DNA of 48,475 nt from an uncultured Bacteroidales bacterium (lineage in GTDB: Bacteria; Bacteroidota; Bacteroidia; Bacteroidales; Paludibacteraceae). The notes below the pieces were generated by a model. The model saw only the letters and a list, made by a program, of their open reading frames with translations. It ran no database searches and was not told the DNA's origin. This document shows, in pieces, positions 5,351 to 41,215 of this stretch (position 1 is its first letter; every line of letters begins with the position of its first letter). The stretch lies in NCBI GenBank assembly GCA_900318245.1, contig ONJT01000016.1:1-48475 (forward strand). The letters are read 5' to 3'. Both the position numbers and the translations under genes were made by a program.

Positions 5351-5378
5351 GTGTAAAGTATAAGGTGTAAAGTGTATA
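5351..5378 (+). repeat. Heptanucleotide tandem array, 4 units (GTGTAAA type)
   Basis: The units GTGTAAA, GTATAAG, GTGTAAA and GTGTATA begin one base after the TAA stop of the upstream barrel gene (5347-5349). The GTG that opens porT at 5372 is the first triplet of unit 4. Confidence 0.85.
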
Positions 5379-6124
5379 AAATTCGGAACATAGCATTTTT
5401 ATGCCTGCTGGCGGTGGTGCTACCGGTGAAGGCGCAACGGGCGCAGAACAGGCCTTACGTGGATGACAAACTGATTCACTTCGGTTTTCAGTTGGGCGTC
5501 AACTTCGCGACCTTCCAGGTGACGGACAGCGAGGTGCCGGTGGAGTTCACCGACGCCCTGACGGGGCAGCACATGGTGGACACGGTGCACTCGCGCGTGA
5601 GCACCCTGCTACCCGGTTTTCACGTGGGTTTTGTGAGCGACTTGCGTCTGTGTAAGTACCTCAACCTGCGTTTCTGTCCGGGTATGCTGTTTACGAGTCG
5701 TACGCTCACGTACAAGTCCGCTAAGGGCGATCCCGTGAAGGGCGCGGTGGGCACCAGTACGACCGTAGATGTGCTGGCTATCCCGATCTCCCTACCCCTT
5801 TATCTTAAATGGTCGGCGGAGCGCGAAGGCAACTACCGGCCATACGTGATTGCCGGCGGTGGTGTCAGTTTTAATGTGGGCCGCGACCACGAGAAACCCG
5901 TGCTGCTGACGACCACAGACTATTTCTGCGAAGTGGGCTTTGGTGTGGACCTGTATTTCTCTTGGTTTAAGTTCTGTCCGGAGATCACCTACCGCATCGG
6001 TTTTGCGAACCAACTCTGTCCGACGGACGGACGAAATGAGTTGCCGCGGGAGAACATGTTCTATACGGATGCTATCTCGCGCCTGACGAGTCATTGCGTG
6101 TGTCTGACCTTTAATTTTGAATAA
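5372..6124 (+). CDS. porT: PorT-like outer membrane protein of type IX secretion
   Basis: The 250-residue protein has a signal peptide ending near VKAQRAQ and a small barrel. Recognisable PorT features are DDKLIHFGFQLGVNFATF after the signal, the central LNLRFCPGMLFTSRTL, and a glycine-rich strand pattern through IAGGGVSFNVG to the last strand CVCLTFNFE. PorT is required for type IX secretion and is located in the outer membrane. The start is taken as GTG 5372, since no in-frame ATG precedes the signal core; that GTG is part of a heptamer array. A similar array follows the gene. The family call is by motif memory; another DUF of the outer membrane beta-barrel group is the alternative. Confidence 0.72.
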   Translation: MYKIRNIAFLCLLAVVLPVKAQRAQNRPYVDDKLIHFGFQLGVNFATFQVTDSEVPVEFTDALTGQHMVDTVHSRVSTLLPGFHVGFVSDLRLCKYLNLRFCPGMLFTSRTLTYKSAKGDPVKGAVGTSTTVDVLAIPISLPLYLKWSAEREGNYRPYVIAGGGVSFNVGRDHEKPVLLTTTDYFCEVGFGVDLYFSWFKFCPEITYRIGFANQLCPTDGRNELPRENMFYTDAISRLTSHCVCLTFNFE

Positions 6125-6125
6125 G

Positions 6126-6174
6126 GTGTAAGGTGTACGGTGTAAAGTGTAAAGTGTAAGGTGTACGGTGTAAG
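6126..6174 (+). repeat. Heptanucleotide tandem array, 7 units (GTGTAAG type)
   Basis: Seven consecutive 7-mers read GTGTAAG, GTGTACG, GTGTAAA, GTGTAAA, GTGTAAG, GTGTACG, GTGTAAG. The array begins one base after the porT stop (6122-6124). The likely start codon of the next gene (GTG 6161) is the first triplet of unit 6. Confidence 0.92.
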
Positions 6175-8813: not shown

Positions 8814-8844
8814 TACTTTTTTTGCATATATCAAAATAATTTTG

Positions 8845-8852
8845 TAATTTTG
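8845..8852 (+). promoter_or_regulatory. Promoter -7 box for cdsA
   Basis: TAATTTTG matches TAnnTTTG and lies 20 bp before the cdsA ATG, implying a very short leader, as is common in Bacteroidota. Confidence 0.65.
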
Positions 8853-14201: not shown

Positions 14202-14229
14202 AGTGGAAAGTGGAAAATGAAAAGTGAAA
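14202..14229. repeat. Heptanucleotide tandem array, 4 units (AGTGGAA type)
   Basis: The units are AGTGGAA, AGTGGAA, AATGAAA and AGTGAAA, followed by AATTTTT. The array lies between the divergent promoters of the ompH unit and bactofilin, just upstream of the - strand -7 box. Unlike most arrays here it sits in a promoter gap rather than between a stop and a start. Confidence 0.7.
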
Positions 14230-14308
14230 AATTTTTCGTTTTTAGTGCCTTTTGTGCTTTTTTTACTAAAAAAGTGCGCGCGTACTTGCGTATGTGAAAT
14301 AGAATTTG

Positions 14309-14762: not shown

Positions 14763-16028
14763 ATGAGAATCAAACCTTTTAAGGGTATTCGGCCGCCGAA
14801 GGACTTGGTAGAACAAGTCAGCAGCCGTCCGTACGATGTATTGAATTCGGAAGAGGCACGCAAAGAGGCGGCCGGCAACCCGAAGAGTCTGTATCATATC
14901 ATCAAGCCGGAGATCAATTTTGAGCCTATGCTTGATGAACACGATCCGCGTGTGTATGAGGCAGCAGCCCTACAATTTGCCGAGTTCAAGGCAGAAGGAT
15001 GGTTGGTGCAGGATCAGGAAGAGCGGTATTACGTCTATGCCCAGACAATCTTGGCCGATAATCCGCTGTCAGGAGGCAAAGAGAAGACGCAATACGGATT
15101 GGTGGTCGGTGCATGGGTGGATGACTATTTGGAGGGACGCATCAAGAAGCATGAGTTGACGCGTCGCGACAAAGAGGAAGACCGCATGAAGCATGTACGT
15201 GTGTTGAACGCGAACATGGAGCCGGTTTTCTTTGCGTACCCGCACCGAGACGATCTGGATGGTCTCATTGCGCGCGTATGCGCCGGCAAGCCCGAGTACG
15301 ACTTTGTGGCTGCGCCGGAAGGATTTAGACATACCTTCTGGGTGATTGACGACCAAGCGACGATCGATCAGATCACCAAGATCTTTGCTCAGATTCCTGC
15401 GATGTACATCGCGGATGGTCACCACAGAAGTGCAGCCGCAGCAGGCGTCGGCGCAGAGAAGCAAAAAGCAACCGGCGACAAAGAGGCGGAGTTTAATTTC
15501 TTCCTTGCGGTGTGCTTCCCGGACAACCAACTCAATATTATCGACTATAACCGTGTAGTGAAAGACCTGAACGGGCTGAGCAGCGAGGCATTCTTGGAGA
15601 AAGTAGCCGAGGATTTCGAGATAGAAGACAAAGGCACGGAGATCTATAAGCCGCAGCGCTTGCATAATTTCAGCCTCTACCTGGACGGACACTGGTATTC
15701 GTTGACGGCCAAAGAAGGAAGATACAACGATGCAGACCCGATTGGCGTCTTGGATGTCACCATCTCGAGTAACTTGATCTTGGATAAGATCTTAGGTATT
15801 AAAGACCTACGGTCGGACAAACGTATTGATTTCGTAGGTGGTATCCGCGGACTCGGTGAGTTAAAGCGCAGAGTGGATAGCGGCGAAATGAAAGTGGCGC
15901 TGGCACTCTACCCTGTTACCATGCAGCAGATCATTGACATCGCAGACAGCGGAAACATCATGCCGCCGAAAACCACATGGTTCGAGCCAAAACTGAGAAG
16001 TGGATTAGTCATTCACGAACTAGGATGA
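14763..16028 (+). CDS. DUF1015-family protein
   Basis: The 421-residue cytoplasmic protein begins MRIKPFKGIRPPKDLVEQV, the usual opening of DUF1015. It carries RPYDVLNSEEARKEAAGNPKSLYHI, the conserved MYIADGHHRSAAA motif near residue 220 and FVGGIRGLGELKRRVDSG near the C-terminus. The biochemical function is not known to me. In other Bacteroidales it is often beside serine biosynthesis genes, but none is present here. Its stop codon lies inside a decamer array that also supplies the next start. Confidence 0.92.
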   Translation: MRIKPFKGIRPPKDLVEQVSSRPYDVLNSEEARKEAAGNPKSLYHIIKPEINFEPMLDEHDPRVYEAAALQFAEFKAEGWLVQDQEERYYVYAQTILADNPLSGGKEKTQYGLVVGAWVDDYLEGRIKKHELTRRDKEEDRMKHVRVLNANMEPVFFAYPHRDDLDGLIARVCAGKPEYDFVAAPEGFRHTFWVIDDQATIDQITKIFAQIPAMYIADGHHRSAAAAGVGAEKQKATGDKEAEFNFFLAVCFPDNQLNIIDYNRVVKDLNGLSSEAFLEKVAEDFEIEDKGTEIYKPQRLHNFSLYLDGHWYSLTAKEGRYNDADPIGVLDVTISSNLILDKILGIKDLRSDKRIDFVGGIRGLGELKRRVDSGEMKVALALYPVTMQQIIDIADSGNIMPPKTTWFEPKLRSGLVIHELG

Positions 16029-16049
16029 CCTAGGAAGACCTAGGTAGAC
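16020..16049 (+). repeat. Decanucleotide tandem array bridging stop and start
   Basis: Three 10-mers (CTAGGATGAC, CTAGGAAGAC, CTAGGTAGAC) are followed by a partial unit CTATG. The DUF1015 stop TGA (16026-16028) is in unit 1 and the porE ATG (16052-16054) is formed by the partial fourth unit. Confidence 0.85.
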
Positions 16050-16051
16050 CT

Positions 16052-18100
16052 ATGAGAAAGCAAATCATCTACATACTATTAGCGGCGTTGTTGATGAGCA
16101 GTTGCTCTATTCAGCAGCGCGTGAAGCGGGCGGATAAGAAATTCGCTATCGGTGAGTATTACAATGCGGCGGACCTGTATAAGCAGTGTTACAGCCGATT
16201 GAATACCAAAACCGATCGCGAGTTGAAGGGCTATGTGGCTTTCAAGCAGGGCGAGTGTTATCGCATCTTGAACAATCCCCGTGCGGTCAATTGTTACAAC
16301 AACGCTTTGCGTTGCAAATACCAGTTGCGCGACTCTACTGTCTTCCTGAACGCCGGCTTGGCGCTACAGTACCAAGGTAAGTATAAAGACGCAGCCAAGA
16401 GCTACGATCTCTACTTGCAGTCCCACCCGGATAACTACGTTGCGCGGGCGGGCAAGTACGCATGCAGCAAGATCGACGAATGGAAGAAAGACGGTTCGAG
16501 ATACAAAGCGAGCGAAGCGAAGGAGTTTAACCAAAAGCGCACCGGCAACTTCTCGCCGATGTTTATCGGCAATCAGACGGATGCGATCATGTTCACCAGC
16601 AACCGGCAGGAGAAGCAGACAGGCACGAAGAAGTTAAAACGACCAAGTAATGTAACGGGTCAACAACTCTTCCAACTATACCAGACGCGTAAGAACGCCG
16701 CCGGTGAATGGGGCGAGATCTCGTTGGCGGAAGGACTGTATGGTTCTCCGGAGAGCGAGCAACAGAACGACTCCACCAAACAGGCCGGGAATGCCGAGAT
16801 CGGGGTGTGCAGTTTTACCAAAGACGGCCGCACGATGTATTTCACCTATTCGAAACCTATCAACGGTAAAGACTTAGGTGCTAAGATCTATCGCAGCGAG
16901 CGCGCGAGTGGTGAATGGAGTGAACCGCAAGAAGTGAAGTTGTTTGCCGACAGTTCTATCACGGTGGGTCATCCGGCATTGAATGCCACCGCCGACACAC
17001 TCTATTTCGTAAGCGACGCACCGGGTGGTGAAGGAGGTAAAGATATATGGATGGCAGAGTTGGACGGCGACCAATGGGTCAATGTACAGCCCTTAGGGGC
17101 AGGCATCAACACCGCGGCCGATGAAATGTTTCCGTACGTACACGAAGACGGCTCGTTGTATTTTGCTTCGAACGGTCATCCGGGCTACGGCGGCTTGGAT
17201 ATCTTCAAGGCCTATAGAGACACGACGCGCACAGACACGACGATCTGGGTGCTCTATAACATGGGTCCGACCTTCAATGGTATCGGTGATGATTTCGGCA
17301 TCACTTTTGCGGGAAACAGCCAAGACGGATTCTTCTCGTCCAACAGAGGCGACAAGAAAGGCTTTGATAAGATATACCGCTTCTGGTTGCCGGAAATGGA
17401 GTTTATCGCGGAAGGAACGGTGAATGATGAGTTAGGCAATCCTATCTCGGATGCCAAGTTACGCTTGGTAGGCAGCGACGGAACGATCAGTAAGGTGAGT
17501 GCCCGCCGAGACGGAACCTATAAGATCAAACTCAAGAAGGACGTCAAATACGTCATGTTGGCGACAGCACGCGGATTCCTAAACGCCAAGCAACAATGGA
17601 ACACCTTGGACTTAAAGGACAGTAAGACCTATACGATGGATTTTGCGTTGAGTCCTATCTCGCGACCGGTAAAGATGGAGAATATCTTCTATGAATTCGG
17701 CCGCTGGGAATTGACCAAAGCTTCGGAGACGGAGTTAGACCGTCTGGTGAAGTTGCTCAACGACAACCCTAATATCACCATTGAACTCTCTGCGCACACT
17801 GACTTGAAAGGTAATGACGAGTTTAATAACGAGTTGTCCCAGAAGCGTGCACAGAGCTGTTGCGACTACCTCATCGCGCGCGGCATCGAGAAAGAGCGCC
17901 TCACGCCGGTGGGATACGGAGAGAGCAAACCGGTGATGGTAGACAAAGCGCTGAATAAGCAGTATCCGTGGCTCCCGGTCGATCAAGCGCTGGACGAAGC
18001 GTATATCCTGACGCTGCCGGCGGACAAACAGGAGATATGTAACCAAATCAACCGTCGTACAGAGTTTAAGGTGATCAAGACGACGTATAATTTGTATTAA
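16052..18100 (+). CDS. porE: PorE-like lipoprotein of type IX secretion (TPR, propeller, CRD, OmpA)
   Basis: The 682-residue lipoprotein has a signal ending LLMSSC. The domain order is: TPR-like helices about 25-150 ([36 protein letters not shown]); a PD40/WD40-like propeller about 165-465 ([54 protein letters not shown]); a carboxypeptidase-regulatory-like domain about 468-545; and an OmpA peptidoglycan-binding domain about 560-675 ([36 protein letters not shown]). This four-domain order and length match PorE of Porphyromonas gingivalis, thought to anchor the secretion complex to peptidoglycan. Confidence 0.87.
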
Positions 18101-21079: not shown

Positions 21080-21958
21080 GTGTTACGACGTGTGACGACA
21101 TACATTCGCCAGCGGGGTTTGTTGGTTAAAGACCAACCGGTGTTGGTGGCCGTTAGCGGCGGCGCAGACAGCGTAGGATTGCTGGATGTGCTGGTTCGCG
21201 CAGGGTATCAATGTATCGTCGCACATTGTAATTTTCACCTGCGGGGCGCAGAGAGTGACCGCGACGAAGCGTTTGTAAGGGAATTATGTGAGCGCATGAA
21301 GGTGCAACTCTTTGTCAACCATTTCGATACCTTGGCTTACGCGCGAGCACATGAAGCGAGCGTGGAGGTAGCAGCGCGGGAACTACGCTATGCGTGGTTT
21401 GAGGAAGTGGCAAAAGAAAACGGTTGCCAAGCGGTGGCCGTAGCGCATCACCAGAATGACCAAGCGGAGACTTTGCTGCTGAATCTCAAGCGCGGGGCAG
21501 GTCTGAGAGGTTTGGCAGGAATGCGTCCGAAAAGTGCCAATCCGATGGTGCCAAACGGTGTGCCAATAGTACGTCCACTGCTTTGCACCACCCGGGACTA
21601 TATTGAACATTATTTGCAGGACAAGCGGCACATCAATTGGGTCGTAGATAGTACCAACAGCGACACTTCAATTACCCGAAATGCTATCCGCGAACAACTC
21701 AAGACTTACAGCAAATCAGAGATCGAGCACATGGCTCAAACGGCCGAATACATGCAAGGCTACGCCGATATGTTGGACGGTAAAGACACGCGCGAAGCAG
21801 GAATTGCAAAACTATACGAAGAACTTCGCGAATATAATTTCGCGGAAATAGATAAGATTTACGATGCGTTGCAGAAGGGTGAAGGAGGAAAAATATTCAC
21901 GTCAAAGACCCATCAAGCAACGATAAAGAAAGGAAAATTATGCGTCATTTCGGTATAA
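21080..21958 (+). CDS. tilS: tRNA(Ile)-lysidine synthase, short form
   Basis: It modifies C34 of the CAU-anticodon tRNA-Ile to lysidine so that it reads AUA. The N-type ATP pyrophosphatase domain is clear: LVAVSGGADSVGLLDVL (PP-loop SGGxDS), CIVAHCNFHLRGAESDRDEAFV, VAVAHHQNDQAETLLLNLKRGAGLRGLAGM and DSTNSDTSITRNAIREQL. GTG 21080 is chosen because AGGAG stands 7 nt upstream and it follows the ettA stop by 2 nt. The protein is only 292 residues, ending soon after the catalytic and linker regions, so the usual C-terminal TilS domain seems to be absent. The 3' end overlaps aroE by 19 bp. Confidence 0.9.
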   Translation: MLRRVTTYIRQRGLLVKDQPVLVAVSGGADSVGLLDVLVRAGYQCIVAHCNFHLRGAESDRDEAFVRELCERMKVQLFVNHFDTLAYARAHEASVEVAARELRYAWFEEVAKENGCQAVAVAHHQNDQAETLLLNLKRGAGLRGLAGMRPKSANPMVPNGVPIVRPLLCTTRDYIEHYLQDKRHINWVVDSTNSDTSITRNAIREQLKTYSKSEIEHMAQTAEYMQGYADMLDGKDTREAGIAKLYEELREYNFAEIDKIYDALQKGEGGKIFTSKTHQATIKKGKLCVISV

Positions 21959-22686
21959 TAGGATATCCCCTGTTGCACTCGTTCTCGGCGAAATATTTCA
22001 ATGAGAAATTTGCAACAGAAAAGATCGATGCGGAGTTTAGTCTGTATCCTCTTCTGGCGGAACAAATTCCTTCTCAGATAGAAGGATTGATGGAGCGCCT
22101 AGACGGGTTTAATGTGACCTTGCCCTACAAGCAGGCCATTATTCCGTATCTGGATCGCTTGGACGAGACGGCGCAAGTGATCGGAGCGGTGAATGTGGTG
22201 CACCAGCGTGTGGGTTACAACACCGACTGCATCGGATTTATGGAATCCATCAAACCTTTGCTGCGGAAGTACGACCAAAAGGCACTGGTGTTAGGCACCG
22301 GAGGCGCATCGAAGGCGGTTTGTTACGGTCTGCGGAAATTGGGCATCACCCCTACCCTCGTGAGCCGCAGTCCGAAAGAAGGGATGTTAGGGTATGAGGA
22401 ATTGAATAAGGACATTATGACAGCCCATACCGTGATCGTCAATTGTACGCCGCTGGGCATGTTGCCGGATGTGGACAGTTGTCCCGCAATCCCATACGAA
22501 CTCATCACCCCGCGGCACTTGCTCTTTGACTGCGTGTATAATCCCGAAGAGACCCTCTTTTTGCAGAAAGGCAAAGCGCAGGGAGCAACCATCCAAAACG
22601 GCATCGGAATGCTGTTGGGTCAAGCGAGGGCTGCCTGGGAGATTTGGAATTCTGAACAGCAGAATGCCTGCATAAACGCTGCATAA
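21940..22686 (+). CDS. aroE: Shikimate dehydrogenase
   Basis: It reduces 3-dehydroshikimate to shikimate with NADPH. The 248 residues include FGIIGYPLLHSFSAKYFNEKF (shikimate-binding Ser pair), FNVTLPYKQAIIPYLD with the catalytic Lys, GAVNVVHQ, NTDCIGF, VLGTGGASKAVCYGL for NADP binding and IQNGIGMLLGQARAAWEIW. It is slightly short for the family. The last residues (NACINAA) and the stop codon are encoded by the first units of an 11-nt array. Confidence 0.95.
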   Translation: MRHFGIIGYPLLHSFSAKYFNEKFATEKIDAEFSLYPLLAEQIPSQIEGLMERLDGFNVTLPYKQAIIPYLDRLDETAQVIGAVNVVHQRVGYNTDCIGFMESIKPLLRKYDQKALVLGTGGASKAVCYGLRKLGITPTLVSRSPKEGMLGYEELNKDIMTAHTVIVNCTPLGMLPDVDSCPAIPYELITPRHLLFDCVYNPEETLFLQKGKAQGATIQNGIGMLLGQARAAWEIWNSEQQNACINAA

Positions 22687-22719
22687 ACCCTGCATAAACC
22701 CTGCATAAACAAGCATAAA
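22669..22719 (+). repeat. 11-nt tandem array at the aroE stop
   Basis: Four 11-mers (TGCATAAACGC, TGCATAAACCC twice, TGCATAAACAA) and a partial fifth (GCATAAA) cover the end of aroE. Each unit carries TAA, and the one at 22684-22686 is the aroE stop. The next gene begins 10 bp after the array. Confidence 0.9.
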
Positions 22720-30842: not shown

Positions 30843-30891
30843 GTGAAAGGTGAAAGGTGAAAAGTGAAAGGTGAAAGGTGAAAAGTGAAAG
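30843..30891 (+). repeat. Heptanucleotide tandem array, 7 units (GTGAAAG type)
   Basis: Seven 7-mers read GTGAAAG, GTGAAAG, GTGAAAA, GTGAAAG, GTGAAAG, GTGAAAA, GTGAAAG. The array starts one base after the PBP stop (30839-30841), and the only plausible start of the next gene, GTG 30878, is the first triplet of unit 6. Copy number and start position match the array at 6126-6174, with a different 7-mer. Confidence 0.93.
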
Positions 30892-32857
30892 GATACATAA
30901 TAGATGGAGATGGTTAGGGCTGATGGTCCTTTCAATTTTCAATTTGCAATTTTCAATTTCCTATGCGCAGCTGAACACCGATCGTATCACTGCGATAGGA
31001 CGGAATGCCTTGTATTTCGAGGACTATGTGCTGTCGATTCAGTATTTCAACCAGGTCATCCATCTCAAGCCCTACCTCGCCGAACCCTATTTCTACCGCG
31101 CGATCGCGAAGATCCAACTGGAGGACTACCAAGGCGCCTTGAGGGATTGTAACGCCGCCATCGAGCGCAATCCTTTCTCGCCCGGTTGCTACTATGCCCG
31201 CGGGTATATATACCGCCAGTTGAACCAACTCGACCTGGCGGAAGCGGACTATACGCAGGCGCTGAGTTTCTCGCCGGAGAACCGCACCTATATGATTTTG
31301 CGCGCAGACACGCGTGCGTTGAGGAAGCACTACGACGAAGCCCTGGAGGACATCGACCAACTCTTGCGCCGCGAGCCGCAATCGGCTTCGGGCTGGAGCG
31401 AGCGCGGACGCGTATGTATGCTCAAGGGCGACACCTTATTGGCTTTGGAGGCCTTCTCCGAAGCCGTCAAATACGACAAAGTGAACCCTGCCGCATGGTC
31501 GGCGCTCGGTGTGACCAACCTCATGCTCAATCACGAGGACGAAGCCTATGCCCAACTCACGCAGGCGATCAACCTGGGCTCGAAATGGGCGGGCGACTAT
31601 ATCAACCGCGGCCTACTCCACTACCGCCGCCATAACTACCGCGGCGCATTGGCGGACTATGACCAGGCGGTGAAGATCGCGCCCAACGAAGCCGATTGTT
31701 ACTACAACCGCGGTGTGATGCGCCAGGAGGTGGGTGACTACAACCGCGCCCTGGAGGACTTCAACAAAGCGATCGACCTCGAGCCGGACAAAGTCGAGAT
31801 GCGCTACCAGCGCGCCTTAGTCGAGATGCAACTCAAACAGTGGAAAGAGGTAGTGAAGGACATGGACGCCCTCATCGCGCGCTATCCCTATTTCCTGCCC
31901 AGTTACTACCTCGCGGCGCAAGCCAAGGCGAAGCAAGGCGACCAAGCCGCCGCCTATCGCTATCGTCAGAAAGCGCATGACTTAGAAGAGCGCAAAGATG
32001 CTATTCAGGCGCAGCAGGCGGCGCAACCCAATACCGAGATGGTCATCGCCGACGCCCAGCCGCAGAAGAAAGACTATCGCAAGCAGTTCTCTGCCACAGC
32101 GGCTCAGAACCAGTCCGAGCCGACGGAGGACGAGCAGAAATACGGTTCGCAGACCCGCGGCGCCGTGCAGAAGAAGCACCAGAACATCGTCAACGAGCCC
32201 CAGATCATCCTCAGTTACTACGCACAGGACATGAGTCTCAGGCGCACCAATTACTACCATCCTTTGGTAGATCAACTGAATCGTCAAGGCGTGCTGCCGG
32301 CAGCGATGAAGTTCACCTCACAGGAACTGACGCTCACCGCCGAGATGGTGGACTTCCATTTCTCGGAGATACGGCGCCTCACCCAACTCATCGACCAGTC
32401 GGAGAATATGGCGATCTACCTGGCGCGCGCCATGGAGTTTGCCATCATCAAGGACTATGCGAGTGCCGTCGATGACTGCACGAAAGCCCTTCTGTTGGCG
32501 GATAGCGACACCGAGCCTATCGTCGTCTTCTGCCGCGCCAACTGGCGCTACCGGATGGCCGATCCGGACTATGAACTCATCCTGCGCGACTATGACCAAG
32601 TGCTGCGCCTGCGCCCGGACTTCAGCTTTGCGTACTATAACAAAGCCAACATCCTCTGCGCAACCCGCGAGTACCAAGAGGCTATCAAATACTACAGCCT
32701 GGCGATCGACATCGACGCCGACTTCGCGGAGGCGTACTTCAACCGCGGACTGACGTATATCTATACCGGCGACACCGAGCGAGGCCTGGCGGACCTCAGC
32801 AATGCCGGAGAATTAGGCATTTACCAAGCGTATAATATGATTTCCCGATTCAAATGA
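30878..32857 (+). CDS. Secreted tetratricopeptide-repeat protein
   Basis: The 659-residue protein opens on GTG 30878 inside a heptamer array. A signal peptide (WLGLMVLSIFNLQFSISYAQ) is followed by at least eight TPR units to about residue 365, for example FYRAIAKIQLEDYQGALRDC, YIYRQLNQLDLAEADYTQAL and YNRGVMRQEVGDYNRALEDF. After a charged linker (about 370-420) come more TPRs (DYDQVLRLRPDFSFAYYNKA, YFNRGLTYIYTGDTERGLAD). It is probably a periplasmic or envelope protein-interaction scaffold, with no enzymatic motif. The upstream in-frame TGA excludes an earlier start. It overlaps the next gene by ATGA. Confidence 0.85.
   Translation: MKSERIHNRWRWLGLMVLSIFNLQFSISYAQLNTDRITAIGRNALYFEDYVLSIQYFNQVIHLKPYLAEPYFYRAIAKIQLEDYQGALRDCNAAIERNPFSPGCYYARGYIYRQLNQLDLAEADYTQALSFSPENRTYMILRADTRALRKHYDEALEDIDQLLRREPQSASGWSERGRVCMLKGDTLLALEAFSEAVKYDKVNPAAWSALGVTNLMLNHEDEAYAQLTQAINLGSKWAGDYINRGLLHYRRHNYRGALADYDQAVKIAPNEADCYYNRGVMRQEVGDYNRALEDFNKAIDLEPDKVEMRYQRALVEMQLKQWKEVVKDMDALIARYPYFLPSYYLAAQAKAKQGDQAAAYRYRQKAHDLEERKDAIQAQQAAQPNTEMVIADAQPQKKDYRKQFSATAAQNQSEPTEDEQKYGSQTRGAVQKKHQNIVNEPQIILSYYAQDMSLRRTNYYHPLVDQLNRQGVLPAAMKFTSQELTLTAEMVDFHFSEIRRLTQLIDQSENMAIYLARAMEFAIIKDYASAVDDCTKALLLADSDTEPIVVFCRANWRYRMADPDYELILRDYDQVLRLRPDFSFAYYNKANILCATREYQEAIKYYSLAIDIDADFAEAYFNRGLTYIYTGDTERGLADLSNAGELGIYQAYNMISRFK
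30930..30957 (+). repeat. Heptamer array inside the TPR-protein signal peptide
   Basis: Four in-frame 7-mers (TTTCAAT, TTTCAAT, TTGCAAT, TTTCAAT) encode SIFNLQFSI of the signal peptide hydrophobic core, only 38 bp after the GTGAAAG array. Since 28 bp is not a multiple of three, any unit gain would shift the frame. Confidence 0.85.
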
Positions 32858-34310: not shown

Positions 34311-36519
34311 GACGATTTCCAAGTACGTAGTACTTGCGTTTCTGTCTTCTGTACTCTGTACGCCTGCTTACGCCACCATCGGCATGCAGGAACTCGGAGA
34401 CTCGCTGACGGCCTTCACGGGTTTCTCCCGTGTGTGGTCGCCGCCTGTGCGTGTCAAGAATCTGCGCGTGAATGGCCAGAACATCACCGTGCGGACCAAC
34501 ACCACCCTGCACGACGTACGATGGACGCCGCAGAACATCAAAGACCTCAAGCAGCAAGTCAGTCGCTGGGTCTTGGGTCATCCGAACGGCAAAGTGACCA
34601 TCTACACCGGCAAGACGGATATCGACGAACTGGTGACGGATCTCGCCAAAGGGACTATCCCGGCGGGCGAACAGAAAGACCTCACGGAGCGAAATATCGC
34701 GCTCTGGCCGAGTCACGGCTTGTACTACAACGCCGACCGCGGCGAGTGGATATGGCAGCGCGCGACGCTCTGGACCACCGTCGAAGACCTCTATAGCCAG
34801 GAGTACGTCAAGCTCATCCGACGCATGCTCGAGAACGCCGGCGCGACGGTGCATATGCCCCGCGCGGGACTGGAGAACCAAGAGACGGGCGCATCCGGCC
34901 TACCGCGGTGGGCGGAAGGAGCGCGCTATTGGCTCAAAGACAAAGGCGTCGATCCCGCGATATGGGACCTCTACGAAGGCAATGAGTACAAAGACGACAT
35001 GAAATGTCGGCCGCTGTGGGTCAACGAACTCGGCGCGCCGATGGACCTCTGCCTCGCTTTCCATACCGACGGACAGGACAGCGGCGATGACTCCACGATC
35101 ATCGGCACACTCGTCATCTATACCTCCCGCGACGACGATGGCAACCGCGTGCTGAGGGACGGACGAAACCGCGAGAAGACGAATCGTAACTTCGCCGACT
35201 ATATCCAGACCCAGGTGACCAAGGACCTCAAGACGCTCGCACCGGAGTGGACGCGCCGCCAACTCAAAGAAGCGAACTACTGCGAGTCGCGCGTACCCGT
35301 CGTGCCGAGTATCATCCTCGAGCTGCTGAGCCATAAGAACATGGCGGATATGCGCTACGGCCTCGATCCTAAGTTCCGCTTTGCCGCCGCCCGCGCGGTG
35401 TACAAAGGTATCTTACGTTACCTCAACGGCAAGTCCGCCGTCGTGCAACCCTTGCCGGTGGAGCAACTGGCGATCGATGCCAAGGGACTGCTGCGGTGGC
35501 AACCCAAAGAGGATCCGCTCGAGCCCGAAGCCGCTCCGACCTATTACATGGTCTATATCCAACAGAACGAAGGCGAATGGGACGTGCAGCAAGTCAACAA
35601 AGGATGCCAACTCCAGACCTCCCTCCAACCCGGCGTAAGGTATAACTACTACGTCGTGGCGGGCAATGACGGCGGCCTGTCCTTCCCCAGCCCGATGGTC
35701 AGCGCCTATCTAAACAGCGAAAGCGGTCCGAAAGCGCTCATCGTCGACGCCTTCGATGACGTCTACGGTGTCGAGTGGTTTGCGGACTCCACCTATGCCG
35801 GCATCGTGCCGGGCAGTTATGCCTGCGAGGACGGCTTCAGCTGTGCCTATATCGGTGCGCAGTGGGACTACCGCCGTGCGAACGAATGGATCAATGATGA
35901 TAACTGCGGCTGGGGTTCCTGTTACCGCGATCATGCCGGACAGATGACGGTAGGTAACACCCATAACTGGAGCGCGATACATGGCAAAGCCCTTCAGGCG
36001 CTTAAGCTCAGTTATGTCAGCGCGACGGAAGGGTTCGCGCAGATAGACTCTACCTATGCCCTGGTCGATGTGGTATGCGGACGCCAGCGTCAACCGCTTG
36101 CCGACCCTACCCGCGCGCAACTCGCATCTTATATCCGTCAAGGCGGCAAGGTCCTCATGAGCAGCGACCACCTCAGCGCCGTCGATCCCGCATGGCTGCG
36201 CGCGAACTTCCATGCGTCCTATTATGCCAAGCAGGCTACGCGCAGCGGACGTATCGGCATCCTCGGACATCGGTCCTATCAACTGTTCACCGAACCAAAC
36301 GAAGAGCAACTCTTCACCTGCACGTCCGAAGGACTGAATCCCGAGGGAACGGGTGCCAAGCGCACTGCGCTGTACATGGACATGCGTTGCGGCGCCGCGG
36401 TGGGGTATACGAACGCACAAGGAGAACGAACGACCCTCCTGTACGGTTTTCCGCTGGAGGCCGTGCGGAATTTTGAGAGCATTTACAAACACTCGATAGA
36501 GTGGCTATTAGCGAAATGA
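34297..36519 (+). CDS. Secreted amidase/golvesin-like protein (xanthan-lyase annotation group)
   Basis: The 740-residue protein starts at ATG 34297 (a GTG stands directly before it) and has a signal peptide ending near CTPAYA. Residues about 110-370 resemble a zinc amidase_3-type fold: LWPSHGLYYN, a long helix (YVKLIRRMLENAGATVHMPR), LCLAFHTDGQDSGDDS and a late helix with Glu (IILELLSHKNMADMRYGLD). A fibronectin type III-like segment follows (about 385-465), then an FN3/golvesin-like and glutamine-amidotransferase-like C-terminal region (KALIVDAFDDVYG, LASYIRQGGKVLMSSD). Similar proteins are labelled xanthan lyase in Bacteroidales. Cell wall hydrolysis is inferred, not shown. Confidence 0.65.
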   Translation: MRISKTISKYVVLAFLSSVLCTPAYATIGMQELGDSLTAFTGFSRVWSPPVRVKNLRVNGQNITVRTNTTLHDVRWTPQNIKDLKQQVSRWVLGHPNGKVTIYTGKTDIDELVTDLAKGTIPAGEQKDLTERNIALWPSHGLYYNADRGEWIWQRATLWTTVEDLYSQEYVKLIRRMLENAGATVHMPRAGLENQETGASGLPRWAEGARYWLKDKGVDPAIWDLYEGNEYKDDMKCRPLWVNELGAPMDLCLAFHTDGQDSGDDSTIIGTLVIYTSRDDDGNRVLRDGRNREKTNRNFADYIQTQVTKDLKTLAPEWTRRQLKEANYCESRVPVVPSIILELLSHKNMADMRYGLDPKFRFAAARAVYKGILRYLNGKSAVVQPLPVEQLAIDAKGLLRWQPKEDPLEPEAAPTYYMVYIQQNEGEWDVQQVNKGCQLQTSLQPGVRYNYYVVAGNDGGLSFPSPMVSAYLNSESGPKALIVDAFDDVYGVEWFADSTYAGIVPGSYACEDGFSCAYIGAQWDYRRANEWINDDNCGWGSCYRDHAGQMTVGNTHNWSAIHGKALQALKLSYVSATEGFAQIDSTYALVDVVCGRQRQPLADPTRAQLASYIRQGGKVLMSSDHLSAVDPAWLRANFHASYYAKQATRSGRIGILGHRSYQLFTEPNEEQLFTCTSEGLNPEGTGAKRTALYMDMRCGAAVGYTNAQGERTTLLYGFPLEAVRNFESIYKHSIEWLLAK

Positions 36520-37955
36520 AAAAGAAAAACTTACCTATATACGAGCACGTAGAGATCACCGGTGTGGCCGCCGAAGGCAAAGCCCTGGTGCGCATCAACG
36601 ACATCGTCACCTTTGTGCCGAACTGCGTGCCGGGCGATATCGTCGATCTGCAGATCACCAAGAAGAAGCACTCCTTCATGGAGGCGAAAGTGCTGCGCAT
36701 CGTAGAACCGAGCAAAGTCCGCTGTGAGGCGCGATGCAAGCATTTCGGGGTGTGCGGCGGATGCAAGTGGCAGATCCTGCCCTATGCCGAACAACTCAAG
36801 TACAAACAGCAGCAGATCGTCGATAACCTCACCCGCATCGGCAAGATCGAACTGCCCGAGATAAGCCCTATCCTCGGCTCGAAGCATATCTACGAGTACC
36901 GCAACAAACTCGAGTTCACCTGCGCCGACCGCAAGTGGTTCCCTTGGGAAGTCATCGAAGCCGCCGGAGGACTCGATAAGGTGGATAGCACCTACGGACT
37001 GGGCTTCCATATCCCTAACTGCTTCGACAAAGTGCTGGATATCGAGACCTGCCACCTCATGCCTCCTATCAACAACCGCATCCGCAATGCGGTGCGCGAG
37101 TATGCGCGGGCGCACGGCCTCACGTTCTATAACGAACATACACACGAGGGACTGCTCCGCAACCTCATCCTCCGCAATAACCACAAAGGCGAACTCATGC
37201 TCGTCGTCTCGTTCGGACAGAAAGTGAACGAAGCGGCGATGGGGCTTCTGGAGTATTTGCATACCGAATTTCCGGAGATCATCTCGTTGATGTACGTGGA
37301 GAACACGAAGTTCAACGACACCATCGGAGACTTGGACGTCAAGACCTATTTCGGTCAGGACCATATCATGGAATCGATGGAGAACCTGCAGTTCAAAGTG
37401 GGCCCGAAGTCCTTCTACCAGACCAACACCGAGCAAGCCTACGAGCTCTATAAAGTCGCGCGGGAATTTGCCTTCGACCAATTACAAATGACAAATGACA
37501 AATTACCATTAGTCTACGATTTATACACAGGAACGGGCACCATTGCCAATTTCGTCGCCCGTCAGGCCCGCCAGGTCATCGGTATCGAGTATGTGCCGGA
37601 GGCGATTGAGGACGCCAAAGTGAACTCGAAGATTAATGGCATCGAGAACACCCTTTTCTTCGCAGGCGACATGAAGGATATCCTCAACGATGACTTCGTT
37701 GCGCAATACGGTCGGCCGGATGTCATCATCACCGACCCGCCCCGCGCCGGCATGCACGAGGATGTCGTCAACGTCATCCTCAACGCCGCGCCGCAACGCA
37801 TCGTCTATGTCAGCTGTAACCCTGCTACCCAGGCCCGCGACTTAGCGCTGCTCGATGCCAAATACCACGTGACGAAGGTGCAACCCGTGGATATGTTTCC
37901 GCACACCCAGCACGTAGAAAACGTCGTACAACTGGAATTAAAATCTACAATCTAA
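36516..37955 (+). CDS. TrmA/RumA-type 23S rRNA uracil-5-methyltransferase
   Basis: The 479-residue protein starts at ATG 36516 (ATGA overlap with the previous gene). The TRAM-like N-terminus (HVEITGVAAEGKALVRIND) is followed by the iron-sulfur cysteines CEARCKHFGVCGGCKWQ. The methyltransferase domain has FYQTNTEQAYELYKVA, VYDLYTGTGTIANFVARQA for SAM, ITDPPRAGMHEDVV and the catalytic YVSCNPATQARDLALL with its Cys. It transfers methyl to uracil C5 in 23S rRNA; whether it acts at U747, U1939 or elsewhere cannot be decided by eye. A heptamer array interrupts the frame before the SAM motif. Confidence 0.9.
   Translation: MKKKNLPIYEHVEITGVAAEGKALVRINDIVTFVPNCVPGDIVDLQITKKKHSFMEAKVLRIVEPSKVRCEARCKHFGVCGGCKWQILPYAEQLKYKQQQIVDNLTRIGKIELPEISPILGSKHIYEYRNKLEFTCADRKWFPWEVIEAAGGLDKVDSTYGLGFHIPNCFDKVLDIETCHLMPPINNRIRNAVREYARAHGLTFYNEHTHEGLLRNLILRNNHKGELMLVVSFGQKVNEAAMGLLEYLHTEFPEIISLMYVENTKFNDTIGDLDVKTYFGQDHIMESMENLQFKVGPKSFYQTNTEQAYELYKVAREFAFDQLQMTNDKLPLVYDLYTGTGTIANFVARQARQVIGIEYVPEAIEDAKVNSKINGIENTLFFAGDMKDILNDDFVAQYGRPDVIITDPPRAGMHEDVVNVILNAAPQRIVYVSCNPATQARDLALLDAKYHVTKVQPVDMFPHTQHVENVVQLELKSTI
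37484..37504 (+). repeat. Heptamer array inside the rRNA methyltransferase gene
   Basis: Three 7-mers (ACAAATG, ACAAATG, ACAAATT) encode part of QLQMTNDKLPL, immediately before the SAM-binding VYDLYTGTG. The array is 21 bp, a multiple of three, so it fits as an in-frame insertion in a surface loop. Confidence 0.7.
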
Positions 37956-37973
37956 AATTTAAAATCTACAATA
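37939..37973 (+). repeat. Heptamer array bridging stop and start, 5 units
   Basis: The units TAAAATC, TACAATC, TAAAATT, TAAAATC and TACAATA contain the methyltransferase stop (37953-37955) and run into the subtilase ATG (37973-37975), whose A is the last base of unit 5. Confidence 0.82.
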
Positions 37974-39403
37974 TGATTAATTTATTAATCATCTTATCCG
38001 TTTATTTCGTGACTTTCACGGATAAACCCGAGAAAACAGCGCCGCAACTGTCCCCGCGGGCAGTAGAGCAGCGCGCCAAGTGGAATATACCTACCGACGC
38101 GATGGATTATCCCGTCAGTCCGATGTACCTGGGTCAGGTACGCGATGCAGGTGGTAAGATCATGCACAAGAGCCGCTGGTTCAATGGTGCGACCGTCGAG
38201 ATGGATGCCGAGACGGCAACCAAAGTGGCGGCACTCAAGTGTGTCACCTCCGTCGAGATGACGCGCGACGACAGTGAACCCAACCTATACCTGCCCAAGC
38301 GCCTGGCGCGCAAGCGCGAGCAGAGTTCGGACATCCCCGGTGCCTACACCGACGCCCAACTCGCCCTCTATAACCTCCGGCCCCTGCACGCAGCGGGTTT
38401 TGAGGGCCAGGGTATCCTCATGGCGATATGCGACGGCGGGTTCTATAACGCCGACAAGATCAATGCTTTCCGGCAGGAACAGGAACTCGGTCATTTTGAC
38501 TTCACCGATGACGATAAGTTCGGCTATGATTTCTACGGCAACACCGGCGACCACGGCACTGAGTGTCTCAGTACCATCTCCGGCATCCGGGGCGACTATT
38601 TCTACGGCGCTGCCACCAAGGCGCAGTATTACCTCATGCGCTCCGAAGAGAACGATACCGAGAGTCCGAAAGAGATGGACAACCTCGTAGCGGCGCTCGA
38701 GAAAGCCGATTCCTTAGGCGTCAATGTCTTCTCCGTCTCTTTGGGTTATTCCCGCTTCGACAACTCCGCCTGGGACCTTCCTAAGTCCGCTTTTGACGGC
38801 AAGAGCACGCGCTGCAGCAGGGCCGCTACTATCGCCGCGCGCAAAGGTATGCTCGTATGTATCGCCGCGGGTAACGATGGCGATGAGTTGGGCAACCCGC
38901 CTCATACCTTAGGTATACCCGGTGATGCAGACAGTACGCTCACCGTAGGAGCCGTCAACACCGACGGCGAGATAGGTTATTTCTCCAGCTACGGACCTAC
39001 CTCCGACATTCGTATCAAACCCGAGGTATGCGCAGTAGGTGTCAAGACGACGCTCATCAACCATACCAACGGCGTCGTGCAGTCCAATGGCACCAGTTTT
39101 GCGACGCCTCTTCTGGCGGGTTTTGCCGCGGCCCTCTGGTCCGCACTGCCCGACGAGAACGCCATGCAGATACGCGAACGTATCCTCCGCTCTTCCGACC
39201 GCTACGACAACCCCGACGTACTCAACTATCAGTACGGCTACGGCATCCCCGACGCCTGGAAAGCCTATACGATGGATATCCCCACCGGCATAGAGAGTAT
39301 TCAGAATTCAGAAATCAGTTATCAGAAGATCCTGCGCGACGGCCAACTCCTGATTATAAAAGGCGGCGAGAGCTATACCCTCACTGGGCAAAGAACACAT
39401 TAA
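37973..39403 (+). CDS. Secreted subtilisin-like serine protease (S8)
   Basis: The 476-residue protein has a short hydrophobic N-terminus (MINLLIILSVYFVTF) likely to serve as a signal, a propeptide-like region (about 25-105) and a subtilase domain with Asp in MAICDGGFYN, His in GDHGTECLSTI, oxyanion Asn in VCIAAGNDGDELG and Ser in NGTSFATPLLAGFAAALW. The C-terminus (KILRDGQLLIIKGGESYTLTGQ) looks like a short form of the tail seen in Bacteroidales secreted proteins and resembles the type IX sorting domain end, but is not a full one. A heptamer array codes the linker before the tail. Type IX export is possible, not proven. Confidence 0.88.
   Translation: MINLLIILSVYFVTFTDKPEKTAPQLSPRAVEQRAKWNIPTDAMDYPVSPMYLGQVRDAGGKIMHKSRWFNGATVEMDAETATKVAALKCVTSVEMTRDDSEPNLYLPKRLARKREQSSDIPGAYTDAQLALYNLRPLHAAGFEGQGILMAICDGGFYNADKINAFRQEQELGHFDFTDDDKFGYDFYGNTGDHGTECLSTISGIRGDYFYGAATKAQYYLMRSEENDTESPKEMDNLVAALEKADSLGVNVFSVSLGYSRFDNSAWDLPKSAFDGKSTRCSRAATIAARKGMLVCIAAGNDGDELGNPPHTLGIPGDADSTLTVGAVNTDGEIGYFSSYGPTSDIRIKPEVCAVGVKTTLINHTNGVVQSNGTSFATPLLAGFAAALWSALPDENAMQIRERILRSSDRYDNPDVLNYQYGYGIPDAWKAYTMDIPTGIESIQNSEISYQKILRDGQLLIIKGGESYTLTGQRTH
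39299..39326 (+). repeat. Heptamer array inside the subtilase C-terminal linker
   Basis: Four 7-mers (ATTCAGA, ATTCAGA, AATCAGT, TATCAGA) encode IQNSEISYQ, the joint between the catalytic domain and the C-terminal tail. Confidence 0.75.
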
Positions 39404-39580
39404 TAATTTATTTTTGTTTATTGCTTTAAAATGATTGTACTCGTAGAGTGGTGGTAATTGGTGGTAAAAACTGTCTAAAAATTTATTTTTAAGGAGTTTT
39501 TAGCAGTAATTAGCATGGGAAGCGTAGCTTTTAATCATTTTAAAGGGTTTATTTTTGTTTATTTTTCTTTTTAAAAAACA
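39404..39580. other. AT-rich intergenic segment
   Basis: About 180 bp between the subtilase stop and the SRP RNA 3' end. I see no credible coding frame. It contains a short direct repeat of GGTGGTAA near 39450-39467 and long T- and A-runs at its right end, the latter serving as the SRP RNA terminator tract. No promoter towards either side is obvious. Confidence 0.4.
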
Positions 39581-39699: not shown

Positions 39700-39705
39700 G
39701 TGCGG

Positions 39706-39713
39706 CAAAATTA
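39706..39713 (-). promoter_or_regulatory. Promoter -7 box for the SRP RNA
   Basis: On the - strand TAATTTTG matches TAnnTTTG and would start transcription within about 10-15 nt of the predicted SRP RNA 5' end. Confidence 0.6.
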
Positions 39714-39796
39714 CTACAAAATATTCAAATATGCAAGACTTTGACGGAAAAAAATAAAAAATATATATATTATTTTAGTTTTTTGCGGCTAAGGTT

Positions 39797-41215
39797 ATGT
39801 TGACGGACTTCATTATAGCGCGTATTAAGGCGGAACTGCCGTGGCAACCGAACGAAGAGAAAGAGGGCTTGCTCAAGTCCCTCGGTGCCTTCCTTGTGTC
39901 CCGCGACCCGCGCAAGGCTTTCATCCTCCGCGGCTACGCGGGTACAGGTAAGACGAGCGTGATGAGTGCGCTCGTCCGCGCGCTTGACGGCCTCAAGCAA
40001 CCCTGTGTCCTGCTCGCCCCCACCGGCCGTGCCGCCAAAGTCCTCAGCAAGTACTCGGGCTTTCCGGCTTATACCATCCATAAGAAGATCTACCGCCAGC
40101 GCCAACTCGGCATGGAGGCTTTCTCGCTCTCCGACAACCGCCATATCCGAACCCTCTTCATCGTGGACGAAGCGTCCATGCTCTCCGGCTCGCGCGATAA
40201 TCCTACCTTCGGTAGCGGCTGCCTGCTCGATGACCTCGTTCGCTATGTCTATAGCGGCCAGGGCTGCAGCCTGCTCCTCCTCGGCGACGATGCCCAGTTG
40301 CCCCCCGTCGGCTCGCTCTCCAGCCCCGCCCTCGATGCGGACTATATGGCCACAACCTTTCAACTTTCAACTTTCAACTTTCAACTCTGTCAAGTGGCTC
40401 GTCAGGCCCTTGACAGTGGCATCCTCTCCGAAGCCACCCGCCTCCGCGAAGAACTTTCAAATCTTCAATCTTCAATCTTCAATCTTAAATCTCCGATCTC
40501 CCTCACCCCCAACGCCGACATCATTAAGGTCCCCGGCGACGAGGTCATCGACACCCTCGAGACCAGTTGGCGCACCGTAGGCGCCGAAGAGACCCTTATC
40601 ATCGCCCGCAGCAATAAGATGACCAACCTCTATAACGGCGGTGTGCGGGCGCGCGTGATGTGGAAAGAGGACGAGCTCTCCAACGGCGACCGGGTGATGA
40701 TCAGCAAGAACAACTATTTCTGGGCGCAAGAGTACAAGGACCTGGAGTTCCTCGCCAACGGCGACATGCTCGAGATCCAGCGCCTGACGAACATCCATGA
40801 GCTCTACGGTTTTCATTTCGCCAAAGCCCAACTCAAGTCCGTCGATTATGACTGGGAGATAGAGGCCCTCGTATGGCTCGATACGCTGACCACCGACAGC
40901 CCCGAGGCTAACTATACGCTGCAGCGCGAACTCTTCGCGCGCATCGCCGAGGACTTCCCCAAGATACGTAATAAGAAAGACCTCGTCAAGGCGGTCTATG
41001 ACTCGCCGTATTATAATGCGCTCCAGATCCGCTATGCCTATTGCGTCACCTGCCATAAAGCCCAGGGCGGGCAGTGGCGCCATGTCTATATCGACACCTC
41101 CGGCATCGGCGAGGATGAGTCCCGTATGTCCGACCCTGCCGAGCGCCGCGAGTACCTCCGCTGGCTCTACACCGCCCTCACCCGCGCCACCGAAAAAATC
41201 TACCTCCTGCGATAA
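39797..41215 (+). CDS. RecD-like superfamily 1 DNA helicase
   Basis: The 472-residue cytosolic protein has helicase motif I (GYAGTGKTSVM), Ia (VLLAPTGRAAKVLSKYSG), II (TLFIVDEASML), III (LLLLGDDAQLPPVGS) and motif VI near the C-terminus (VTCHKAQGGQWRHVYID and RWLYTALTRATEKIYLL). This is the AAA_30/UvrD_C_2 type related to RecD2, without the long N-terminal domain. Compared with what I expect for the family, the region around residues 180-240 carries two foreign-looking stretches (TTFQLSTFNFQL and SNLQSSIFNLKSPIS) coded by heptamer arrays. It starts at the ATG after a weak AT-rich promoter region. Confidence 0.85.
   Translation: MLTDFIIARIKAELPWQPNEEKEGLLKSLGAFLVSRDPRKAFILRGYAGTGKTSVMSALVRALDGLKQPCVLLAPTGRAAKVLSKYSGFPAYTIHKKIYRQRQLGMEAFSLSDNRHIRTLFIVDEASMLSGSRDNPTFGSGCLLDDLVRYVYSGQGCSLLLLGDDAQLPPVGSLSSPALDADYMATTFQLSTFNFQLCQVARQALDSGILSEATRLREELSNLQSSIFNLKSPISLTPNADIIKVPGDEVIDTLETSWRTVGAEETLIIARSNKMTNLYNGGVRARVMWKEDELSNGDRVMISKNNYFWAQEYKDLEFLANGDMLEIQRLTNIHELYGFHFAKAQLKSVDYDWEIEALVWLDTLTTDSPEANYTLQRELFARIAEDFPKIRNKKDLVKAVYDSPYYNALQIRYAYCVTCHKAQGGQWRHVYIDTSGIGEDESRMSDPAERREYLRWLYTALTRATEKIYLLR
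40353..40388 (+). repeat. Heptamer array inside the helicase gene (CAACTTT type)
   Basis: An 8-mer CAACCTTT is followed by three CAACTTT units and CAACTC. In frame it encodes TTFQLSTFNFQL, replacing or extending the segment between motif III and the conserved QVARQALDSGIL helix. Confidence 0.88.
40458..40500 (+). repeat. Heptamer array inside the helicase gene (CAATCTT type)
   Basis: An 8-mer CAAATCTT is followed by three CAATCTT units and two degenerate units (AAATCTC, CGATCTC). It encodes the segment around SNLQSSIFNLKSPIS. It lies 70 bp after the CAACTTT array but uses a different 7-mer. Confidence 0.85.

Follow-up and report, generated by a model that had tools for sequence, protein, structure and literature searches.

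Simple repeats in bacterial genomes are usually regarded as phase switches or as junk. Among the described systems, the closest to the arrays treated here are the TAACTGA direct repeats of marine Beggiatoaceae, which overlap the stop codon of the upstream gene and end close before the start of the next one (MacGregor 2015, PMC4679880). In the parts of that paper available to us, the repeats carry stops in three frames in sense orientation and occur within open reading frames (ORFs) in reverse orientation, the word is also recorded from cyanobacteria and five Bacteroidetes, and two Cyanothece strains differ mostly by steps of 7 nucleotides (nt). It was also reported there and in PMC4692102 (likewise available in part), citing Mrazek et al. 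2007, that heptamers are the commonest long unit (5-11 nt class) in most genomes, and slippage over the 7-nt polymerase contact is credited to the same study (PMC4679880). Three different heptanucleotides are described from one Calothrix strain, and the GGGAATC and GGGGA(T/C)T heptamers of Xanthomonas and Nostoc are largely intergenic, G-rich and quadruplex-forming, with length and sequence varying between close relatives (PMC4692102, the part available). Here we analyse heptanucleotide arrays in a contig of 48,475 nt from an uncultured Bacteroidales bacterium of the family Paludibacteraceae (ONJT01000016.1, positions 1 to 48,475; this whole stretch is called the window) and in its relatives. 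A preliminary description, made from the letters alone, had listed twelve tandem arrays in it.

Like the TAACTGA repeats, the junction arrays found here overlap the upstream stop and precede a start. The preliminary description knew of no described counterpart, which has to be corrected, as stop-overlapping heptamers before starts are on record for the Beggiatoaceae, and TAACTGA also for the cyanobacteria and Bacteroidetes just mentioned. However, as far as the available part of that account goes, one word dominates there and related heptamers are rarely repeated, whereas here tens of words occur, a given slot holds one word in one species and another in its sister, and signal peptides are formed by arrays. 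The word TAACTGA was found in none of 280 arrays from four genomes and in one of 225 from 80 loci. The long simple sequence repeat (LSSR) class, with units of 5-11 nt of which 7 is commonest, is matched by a period-7 excess beyond chance and by gaps in unit steps (12 of 43 within arrays), but as cited it is a statistical class without slots, word swaps or signal-peptide modules. The Calothrix heptanucleotides, which we take to be the short tandemly repeated repetitive (STRR) sequences of cyanobacteria, also have seven-base units, but the arrays here are in Bacteroidales and not in cyanobacteria. With the heptamers of Xanthomonas and Nostoc they share the period and a variable length and sequence between close relatives, in so far as the accessible text describes these, but GGGAATC was absent from the 505 arrays collected here and GGGGATT occurred once. 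What is new is the many words with one period, the swapping of words at fixed slots and the signal-peptide module; heptamers at stops and starts were already known. No account of fixed-slot word swapping or of heptamer-coded signal-peptide modules was found in the literature searched, which left most subscription papers outside.

Abundance, placement and vocabulary of the arrays

Heptanucleotide simple-sequence arrays are unusually numerous in one lineage, the Paludibacteraceae, whose members live in the rumen and gut. Periods were counted with a lag detector independent of Tandem Repeats Finder (TRF), with two shuffles per sequence as the control. In the sample of the window's own genome (690,068 bases; 40 stretches plus the window, 31% of the genome), 54, 11, 10, 2, 15, 2 and 0 arrays were found at periods 7 to 13, respectively, and 80 named relatives (1,490,896 bases) gave 175, 22, 15, 2, 50, 6 and 0; the shuffled sequences of both sets gave none at any period. 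Period 7 was thus the main peak and period 11 a smaller one in the own-genome sample, and the genome-wide excess of period 7 proposed in the preliminary description is confirmed. The density of period-7 arrays was 96, 115, 175 and 245 per Mb in four genomes (400-690 kb sampled in each), three of which had been picked as rich in words searched earlier and are therefore not a random choice. In eight genomes from other families of the Bacteroidales, 335,677 bases yielded a single period-7 array. The loci of the 80 relatives, each 4-22 kb long, had between 0 and 15 arrays. Exact triplets of three words were present in 9, 6 and 13 of 31 genus genomes, own included, and when 149 genomes from the whole order were searched for one of these words it was present in 9, again counting the own genome.

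Outside the family, one genome (G161, family f2) contained 17 partly overlapping matches to TTTTCAATTTTCAATTTTCAA; a 350-nt stretch of contig C52 held five of these, on both strands. So many matches in one genome of another family mean that the habit arose or spread elsewhere too, and an independent rise of the heptamer-array habit in G161 is possible. Six matches to the reversed control of TTTTCAATTTTCAATTTTCAA were found in G107 (family f66), which is another such word in a distant family.

The placement of the arrays relative to gene ends is non-random. When contact was defined as lying within 10 nt, 107 of the 280 arrays from four genomes touched a stop codon (11.1 expected), and 49 touched a start as well as a stop (4.2 expected). 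Under random noncoding placement, the 124 noncoding arrays should have touched a stop in 19.4 cases and both in 4.5, and the observed numbers were 89 and 41. Between co-directional genes lay 24 of 67 arrays in the own-genome sample and 141 of 225 in the 80 relatives, and within predicted genes 34 of 67 and 75 of 225. Among 87 noncoding gene-end arrays, the unit had stops only on the sense strand in 45 cases, only on the antisense strand in 7, on both in 34 and on neither in one; this skew is biased, because arrays lacking stops would have been taken for coding sequence. Of 114 junction units, 51 combined a stop with a start on the sense strand, compared with 30.2 in within-unit letter shuffles and 22 of 114 on the antisense strand.

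When words were grouped into classes by rotation and strand, 67 arrays of the own genome fell into 33 classes and 225 arrays of the 80 relatives' loci into 90. Two arrays shared a class about 22 times (67 set) and about 10 times (225 set) more often than in letter shuffles, the excess in the 80 loci being partly due to sites inherited from a common ancestor. Within one 22-kb locus, arrays at different sites had the same word in 12.5% of pairs, compared with 2.2% between loci, and for words at most one letter apart none of 300 permutations reached the observed within-locus value. No clear decay of word sharing with distance was seen within 20 kb. In four whole genomes sharing was 4.0% within and 2.5% between genomes, a difference reached in none of 1000 permutations. 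Within a genome, words thus spread to some extent or are subject to a common bias, with no single dominant word.

Changing words at fixed slots and at predicted signal peptides

The slot between a transglycosylase/transpeptidase (PBP) gene and a TPR protein gene (30843 in the window; Table 1) was viewed in 55 relatives and words were assigned over 47 rows; rows L111-L113, L115, L133 and perhaps others, which have a different gene after the PBP gene, were not counted. At a lenient threshold an array word was present in 30 of the 47 rows, which come from separate metagenome-assembled genome (MAG) projects, and it was GTGAAAG, TTGAGAA, TTGAAAG, TTGAGAG, TTGATAG or another word; other rows had no array. 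Assembly error, which the preliminary description had named as a possible source of the arrays, left no sign and was rejected, since the same slots hold arrays in many separate MAGs. In about 20 of the 47 rows the presumed signal peptide of the TPR protein was also coded by an array, with a word unlike that of the junction (TTTCAAT, TCTGTAC, GGTACTT). Automatic signal-peptide labels in L075, L082 and L110 represented the junction word bleeding in, and the parsimony counts (19, 14 and 19 changes) were not used. At the 5347 slot three of ten relatives had other words and seven had none, and at the 6122 slot nine of ten had no array and one had another word inside the signal peptide.

The nearest named genomes to the window are Paludibacteraceae or Bacteroidales MAGs, and the very nearest, the goat-reticulum MAG 'Paludibacteraceae bacterium isolate RGIG3390' (L073), shows 99% protein identity for the PBP gene and 95.7% DNA identity over 22.1 kb. 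The two differ at each of the seven heptamer arrays listed for the shared 22 kb, and hotspots of divergence lie at the array sites. In L073 the 30843 array was replaced, that at 30930 gave way to (TCTGTAC)n, and two arrays changed word in phase and at equal length (ACAAATG to ATCAATG at 37476-37503, CTTTCAA to TTATCAA at 40357). At 37939, L073 has 42 nt more with the word ATCAATA/C; at 40460 a period-9 CCTAG-type array stands instead; the 39299 array is present in the window only. Unlike the heptamers, the 11-mer at 22667 was kept in L073 with few changes. Conversely, L073 has extra arrays at window positions 19401 and 32854, both lacking in the window. The 19401 junction was empty in nine of 16 rows, held one shared AAAGTTG haplotype in L073, L076, L079 and L104, and held other sequence in L074, L098 and L110. 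In six close pairs of genomes the proportions of differing columns within arrays were 0.28, 0.04, 0.56, 0.59, 0.27 and 0.24, compared with 0.04-0.08 in coding DNA, and thus arrays were more divergent than coding DNA in five pairs and no higher in the second (0.04). Gaps that are multiples of 7 made up 12 of 43 in arrays, 2 of 54 in noncoding and 4 of 72 in coding sequence (p=1.1e-4; counts from twelve pairs, not all independent).

Arrays inside coding sequence also vary between relatives. At the array position of the methyltransferase-like gene, 11 of 14 alignable relatives had a short array-free segment, L073 and L110 had arrays of other words, and L074 had a non-array insert. The L095 copy of this gene has an in-frame stop in a conserved motif (GT*TIAN), which could be a sequencing error or a broken copy. 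In slot A of the helicase gene, many distant orthologs code a GYGLxV-type peptide with ordinary codons. In close relatives, 19-20 codons keep the aromatic/leucine pattern as the DNA becomes (GGTTACG)n, (TATCAGT)n, (TATCAAT)n or (CTTTCAA)n. The best lag was 7 in 23 of 41 rows, and 21 of these belong to the 23 rows with an identity of at least 70%; the rows include the window itself, and a few genomes appear twice under two handles.

Paired heptamer arrays of opposite type appear, from their sequences, to be a start-plus-signal-peptide module before different exported proteins of one genome, signal-peptide status being judged by hydrophobicity. In a predicted N-terminus such as VKGERTYKVKGERLKVKGMIILFFLSIFNFQFSTCLAQ the charged part comes from an A/G-rich array and the hydrophobic part from a T/C-rich one; in the copies inspected, one unit in three of the charged-part array was altered so that no stop arises. 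In 12 genomes, a search with CCTTTCAATTTTCAATTTTCA found 29 places in 7 genomes and a search with the TCTGTAY repeat found 33 places in 8 genomes, overlapping matches being counted apart in both. Thirty TCTGTAY sites could be placed (10 sense in genes, 11 antisense and 9 called intergenic), and nine of the 10 sense sites lay within the first 10 codons and one at codon 21. Eighteen of the 29 CCTTTCAATTTTCAATTTTCA loci, chosen for their signal-peptide look, were reread because the gene caller had missed several starts, and in the LSIFNFQF frame each opened an ORF of at least 262 codons. The remaining 11 were by first classification six antisense and five intergenic (one of the latter, L321, was measured at its neighbour's site). 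A pair of AAAGG-type units stood about 20 nt before CCTTTCAATTTTCAATTTTCA in 11 of the 29 places.

Of ten module proteins scanned, two had no Pfam match. The other eight matched beta-barrel, TPR, Wzi-like (under the cut-off), metallophosphatase, S41 peptidase and PPIase families, carboxypeptidase-regulatory/DUF5686, and carboxypeptidase-regulatory/TonB plug (the last two share one domain). In one genome (G046) the module was on five genes and the hydrophobic part alone on a sixth. In another (G023) two neighbouring genes shared the module over 96 nt at 86%, and their proteins were not homologous past residue 40 in BLASTP. Where a sister lacks the module, the replaced stretch extends, as judged by eye, from the upstream stop to the likely cleavage-site codons (L116/L117, L084/L088, window/L073). 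The linked pair AAAGGTG (junction) and AATTTTC (signal peptide) occurred in six of the eight AAAGGTG rows on the PBP tree, scattered over lineages whose sisters have other words. Arrays in the first 100 nt were found in 13 of 462 genes with a hydrophobic N-terminus and in 6 of 825 others (p=0.006). In RNA folding the window's junction plus signal peptide was not special as a hairpin (z -0.76), and the module of one relative gave z -2.69.

The arrays of the window and other repeats

TRF at score 30 recovered all twelve arrays of the preliminary description within 8 bases of the positions given there (Table 1). Its picture was borne out, in that the period is shared, the words change from site to site and the copies at one site are alike, and arrays do lie both at gene junctions and inside genes, with that at 14202 in a divergent intergenic region. 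At score 40 there were seven non-overlapping period-7 arrays and one scored as period 21, and 20 block-wise dinucleotide shuffles of the window contained no period-7 array. The arrays at 39299 (score 33) and 14202 (score 37) fall below this cut and are too weak alone; rows as weak as 39299 also occurred at 8667, 24844 and 39749. By Pfam, the flanking genes are ordinary-looking Bacteroidales genes. The GTG start of the longest ORF of the next gene lay inside the array at all three sense-orientation junctions (5347, 6122 and 30843).

Table 1. Tandem arrays of the window, with their placement and the genes concerned
Array	Coordinates	Strand	Placement	Context
(TAAAGTG), about 4	5347..5376	+	stop/start junction	starts at TAA stop of Plug/beta-barrel outer-membrane protein gene 2779-5349; last unit contains ORF start GTG (5372) of next gene (beta-barrel protein)
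(TAAGGTG), about 7.6	6122..6174	+	stop/start junction	starts at stop of ORF 5372-6124; contains ORF start GTG (6161) of next gene, N-terminus VYGVRNIIFVLAAVLCLFAGC, lipoprotein-like by eye
(AGTGAAA), about 4	14202..14230	+	divergent intergenic	weak
10-nt array CTAGGAAGAC	16020..16052	+	stop/start junction	spans stop of 14763-16028 to ATG at 16052
11-nt array (CCTGCATAAAC), 4	22667..22710	+	junction, covers stop only	over stop of 21940-22686
(GTGAAAG), about 7	30843..30892	+	stop/start junction	after stop (30841) of PBP gene; holds ORF start GTG (30878) and charged residues (VKSER) of TPR protein; also scored as 100% 21-nt repeat
(TTTCAAT), about 4	30930..30959	+	inside ORF	codes hydrophobic part of presumed signal peptide LSIFNLQFSISYAQ of TPR protein
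(GACAAAT), about 4	37476..37503	+	inside ORF	variable, presumably loop, position of tRNA_U5-methyltransferase-like gene 36501-37955
(TAAAATC), about 5	37939..37972	+	stop/start junction	methyltransferase stop (37955) and subtilase start (37973)
(ATTCAGA), about 3	39299..39318	+	inside ORF	weak; near 3' end of subtilase gene
(CTTTCAA), about 4 (slot A)	40357..40386	+	inside ORF	UvrD/PIF1-like helicase gene 39797-41215
(AATCTTC), about 5 (slot B)	40460..40492	+	inside ORF	same helicase gene

The 10-mer and the 11-mer had been counted by the preliminary description as members of the same family, which did not hold for either. Period 10 is without enrichment. The 59 period-11 arrays of the 80 relatives fell into 52 word classes and were mostly noncoding and away from stop codons (six of 41 co-directional ones touched a stop). 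The 11-mers, which form the second peak and of which the window's copy is conserved in L073, are a separate repeat class.

A second array family of about period 9, based on CCTAGG, was found in a protein loop and in the N-termini of different genes (slot B of the L073 helicase, L096, L224:4501 and L224:10029). A palindrome-like CCCTCCC...GGGAGGG element occurred in N-termini and junctions (L243:3089, L252:16136, the PBP-TPR junction of L087, and L090 compared with L089, position 1261-1468), in one case coding SLPFREGVGVG. The window also contains a 45-nt tandem repeat (928-1057, 2.9 copies) in the N-terminal part of the Rho gene (384-2327), a 75-nt tandem repeat (47915-48071, 2.1 copies) near the window end, and TAATTTTGTAATTTTG at 8837-8852 ahead of a CTP_transf_1 gene at 8873. 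The last resembles a doubled Bacteroidetes promoter -7 element.

Origin of the arrays and their meaning

It is somewhat probable, in our view, that slippage makes and homogenises the arrays, that short-tract exchange moves the contents of slots, and that selection keeps those that are usable. Strand slippage in 7-nt steps would add, remove and homogenise copies, and it is supported by the 7n gaps within arrays. Short-tract recombination with another allele or another slot would replace the contents of a slot, be it a single array or a longer piece, up to a module of some 100 nt reaching from the upstream stop to the cleavage site. Selection would then retain arrays only where the sequence is usable, i.e., at a junction, in a signal peptide or in a loop. 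At co-directional junctions the sense strand often would offer stop codons plus GTG, TTG or ATG starts; since 7 cannot be divided by 3, they recur in every frame, and so one array could both terminate the upstream gene and supply the start of the following one. For signal peptides, charged n-regions may be coded by A/G-rich words and hydrophobic h-regions by T/C-rich words, and in loops the stop-free orientation is presumably tolerated. The claim of the preliminary description that one local mechanism acts, rather than a dispersed element, is too simple for this pattern, as the word set is restricted, words recur within a genome, and a composite module precedes different genes.

The main rival is passive slippage only, in which arrays are born locally by a 7-nt step and persist under weak selection, with no exchange and no function. 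There is a real though minor chance of this. It would account for the local homogeneity and the period, for the 7n gaps, and for words whose composition follows that of their surroundings (rich in A/G at starts, in T/C in signal peptides), and the N-terminal-region array of L073 at window position 32854 indeed faces ordinary window sequence. It does not readily explain near-identical composite modules on different genes, nor the linked AAAGGTG and AATTTTC in distant lineages and not in sisters. Moreover, no 7-nt templating signal was found in substitutions outside arrays: there was no lag-7 peak among 1,006 substitutions in divergent non-array stretches or among 4,092 elsewhere, those within 16 columns of a gap being dropped. 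General 7-nt templated mutation was rejected on this ground, and the behaviour belongs to the arrays and not to the whole genome.

By analogy with the regulation proposed for the TAACTGA repeats in Beggiatoaceae (PMC4679880, the part available), arrays might bind an RNA- or DNA-binding regulator of the S1, Csp or Csr type at translation starts. The location just upstream of starts would suit this, but 33 word classes among 67 arrays of one genome, words swapping at the same gene between sister species, and the many arrays within coding sequence (34/67, 75/225) make it improbable. A phase-variation switch, in which gain or loss of a 7-nt unit shifts frame or spacing and toggles a surface protein, would be favoured by 7 not being a multiple of 3 and by some arrays at the starts and signal peptides of exported proteins. 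It is nevertheless quite unlikely, since arrays in the 70 nt upstream of the start are equally frequent with or without a hydrophobic N-terminus (36/462, 69/825), and since junction arrays have starts and stops in every frame and a change of unit need not switch anything. Finally, writing of the arrays by a templated generator (for instance a mobile element, or a reverse transcriptase that copies a short RNA) has in its favour that the preferred words are genome-specific, and is very improbable given that RVT_1 occurs in only eight of 31 genus genomes, that words vary among sites of one genome, and that the array-rich window genome (92% complete) has no RVT_1 match, on which ground reverse-transcriptase templating was rejected (transposases and other polymerases were not searched for). 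Phage spread was likewise disfavoured, two words tried giving only 7 and 31 stretches, themselves not examined, in a viral-contig collection.

Several results weigh against slippage combined with exchange and selection, or limit it. Recombination was not seen directly, and exchange is suggested by shared haplotypes and modules in the sequences; in the L073 draft genome no second exact match to the 25-nt pattern of the L073 signal peptide was found, and ectopic copying is thus unproved there. Most gaps in arrays (31 of 43) are not multiples of 7. In non-array noncoding sequence of the same six close pairs the differing columns were 0.39, 0.24, 0.16, 0.19, 0.09 and 0.22, and the arrays exceed these in four pairs (in one barely) and not in the other two. 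Genome-wide word sharing is modest (0.040 vs 0.025). Part of the contact with stops is inevitable, since an ORF that enters an array whose word has stops in every frame must end there. Coding arrays also exceed shuffles for units with stop plus start (24 of 140 vs 13.6 on the sense strand, 53 of 140 antisense), and therefore the junction excess is partly a trait of the word set. The hexamer-scored gene caller, which replaced a simple open-ORF caller that gave spurious ORFs, agrees on the start at 5372 but prefers 6188 and 30923, so the callers split at two of the three junctions, and gene starts from either are approximate. The enrichment at signal peptides reaches only p=0.06 against mid-gene windows (13/462 vs 18/1287); from such modest figures the signal-peptide module is real but not common.

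A more specific version of slippage with exchange is attractive, and we hold it tentatively, at somewhat less than even chances. In the Paludibacteraceae, arrays of opposite type might serve as an exchangeable gene-start kit, in which the sense array would provide a frame-independent stop, a start and the charged n-region, and the T/C-rich reverse-type array the hydrophobic core, the kit being shuffled between exported proteins and between species by short-tract recombination. If this is true, export signals evolve as modules apart from the mature protein.

For gene callers, the true starts in such genomes may lie within repeats. The results also make it testable why period 7 is preferred, whether junction repeats have any role in translation, and how it is possible for signal peptides to turn over faster than the exported proteins that carry them. 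In these bacteria, heptamer arrays seem to be raw material from which gene boundaries and secretion signals are built, and comparison of close relatives shows them gained, lost and swapped.

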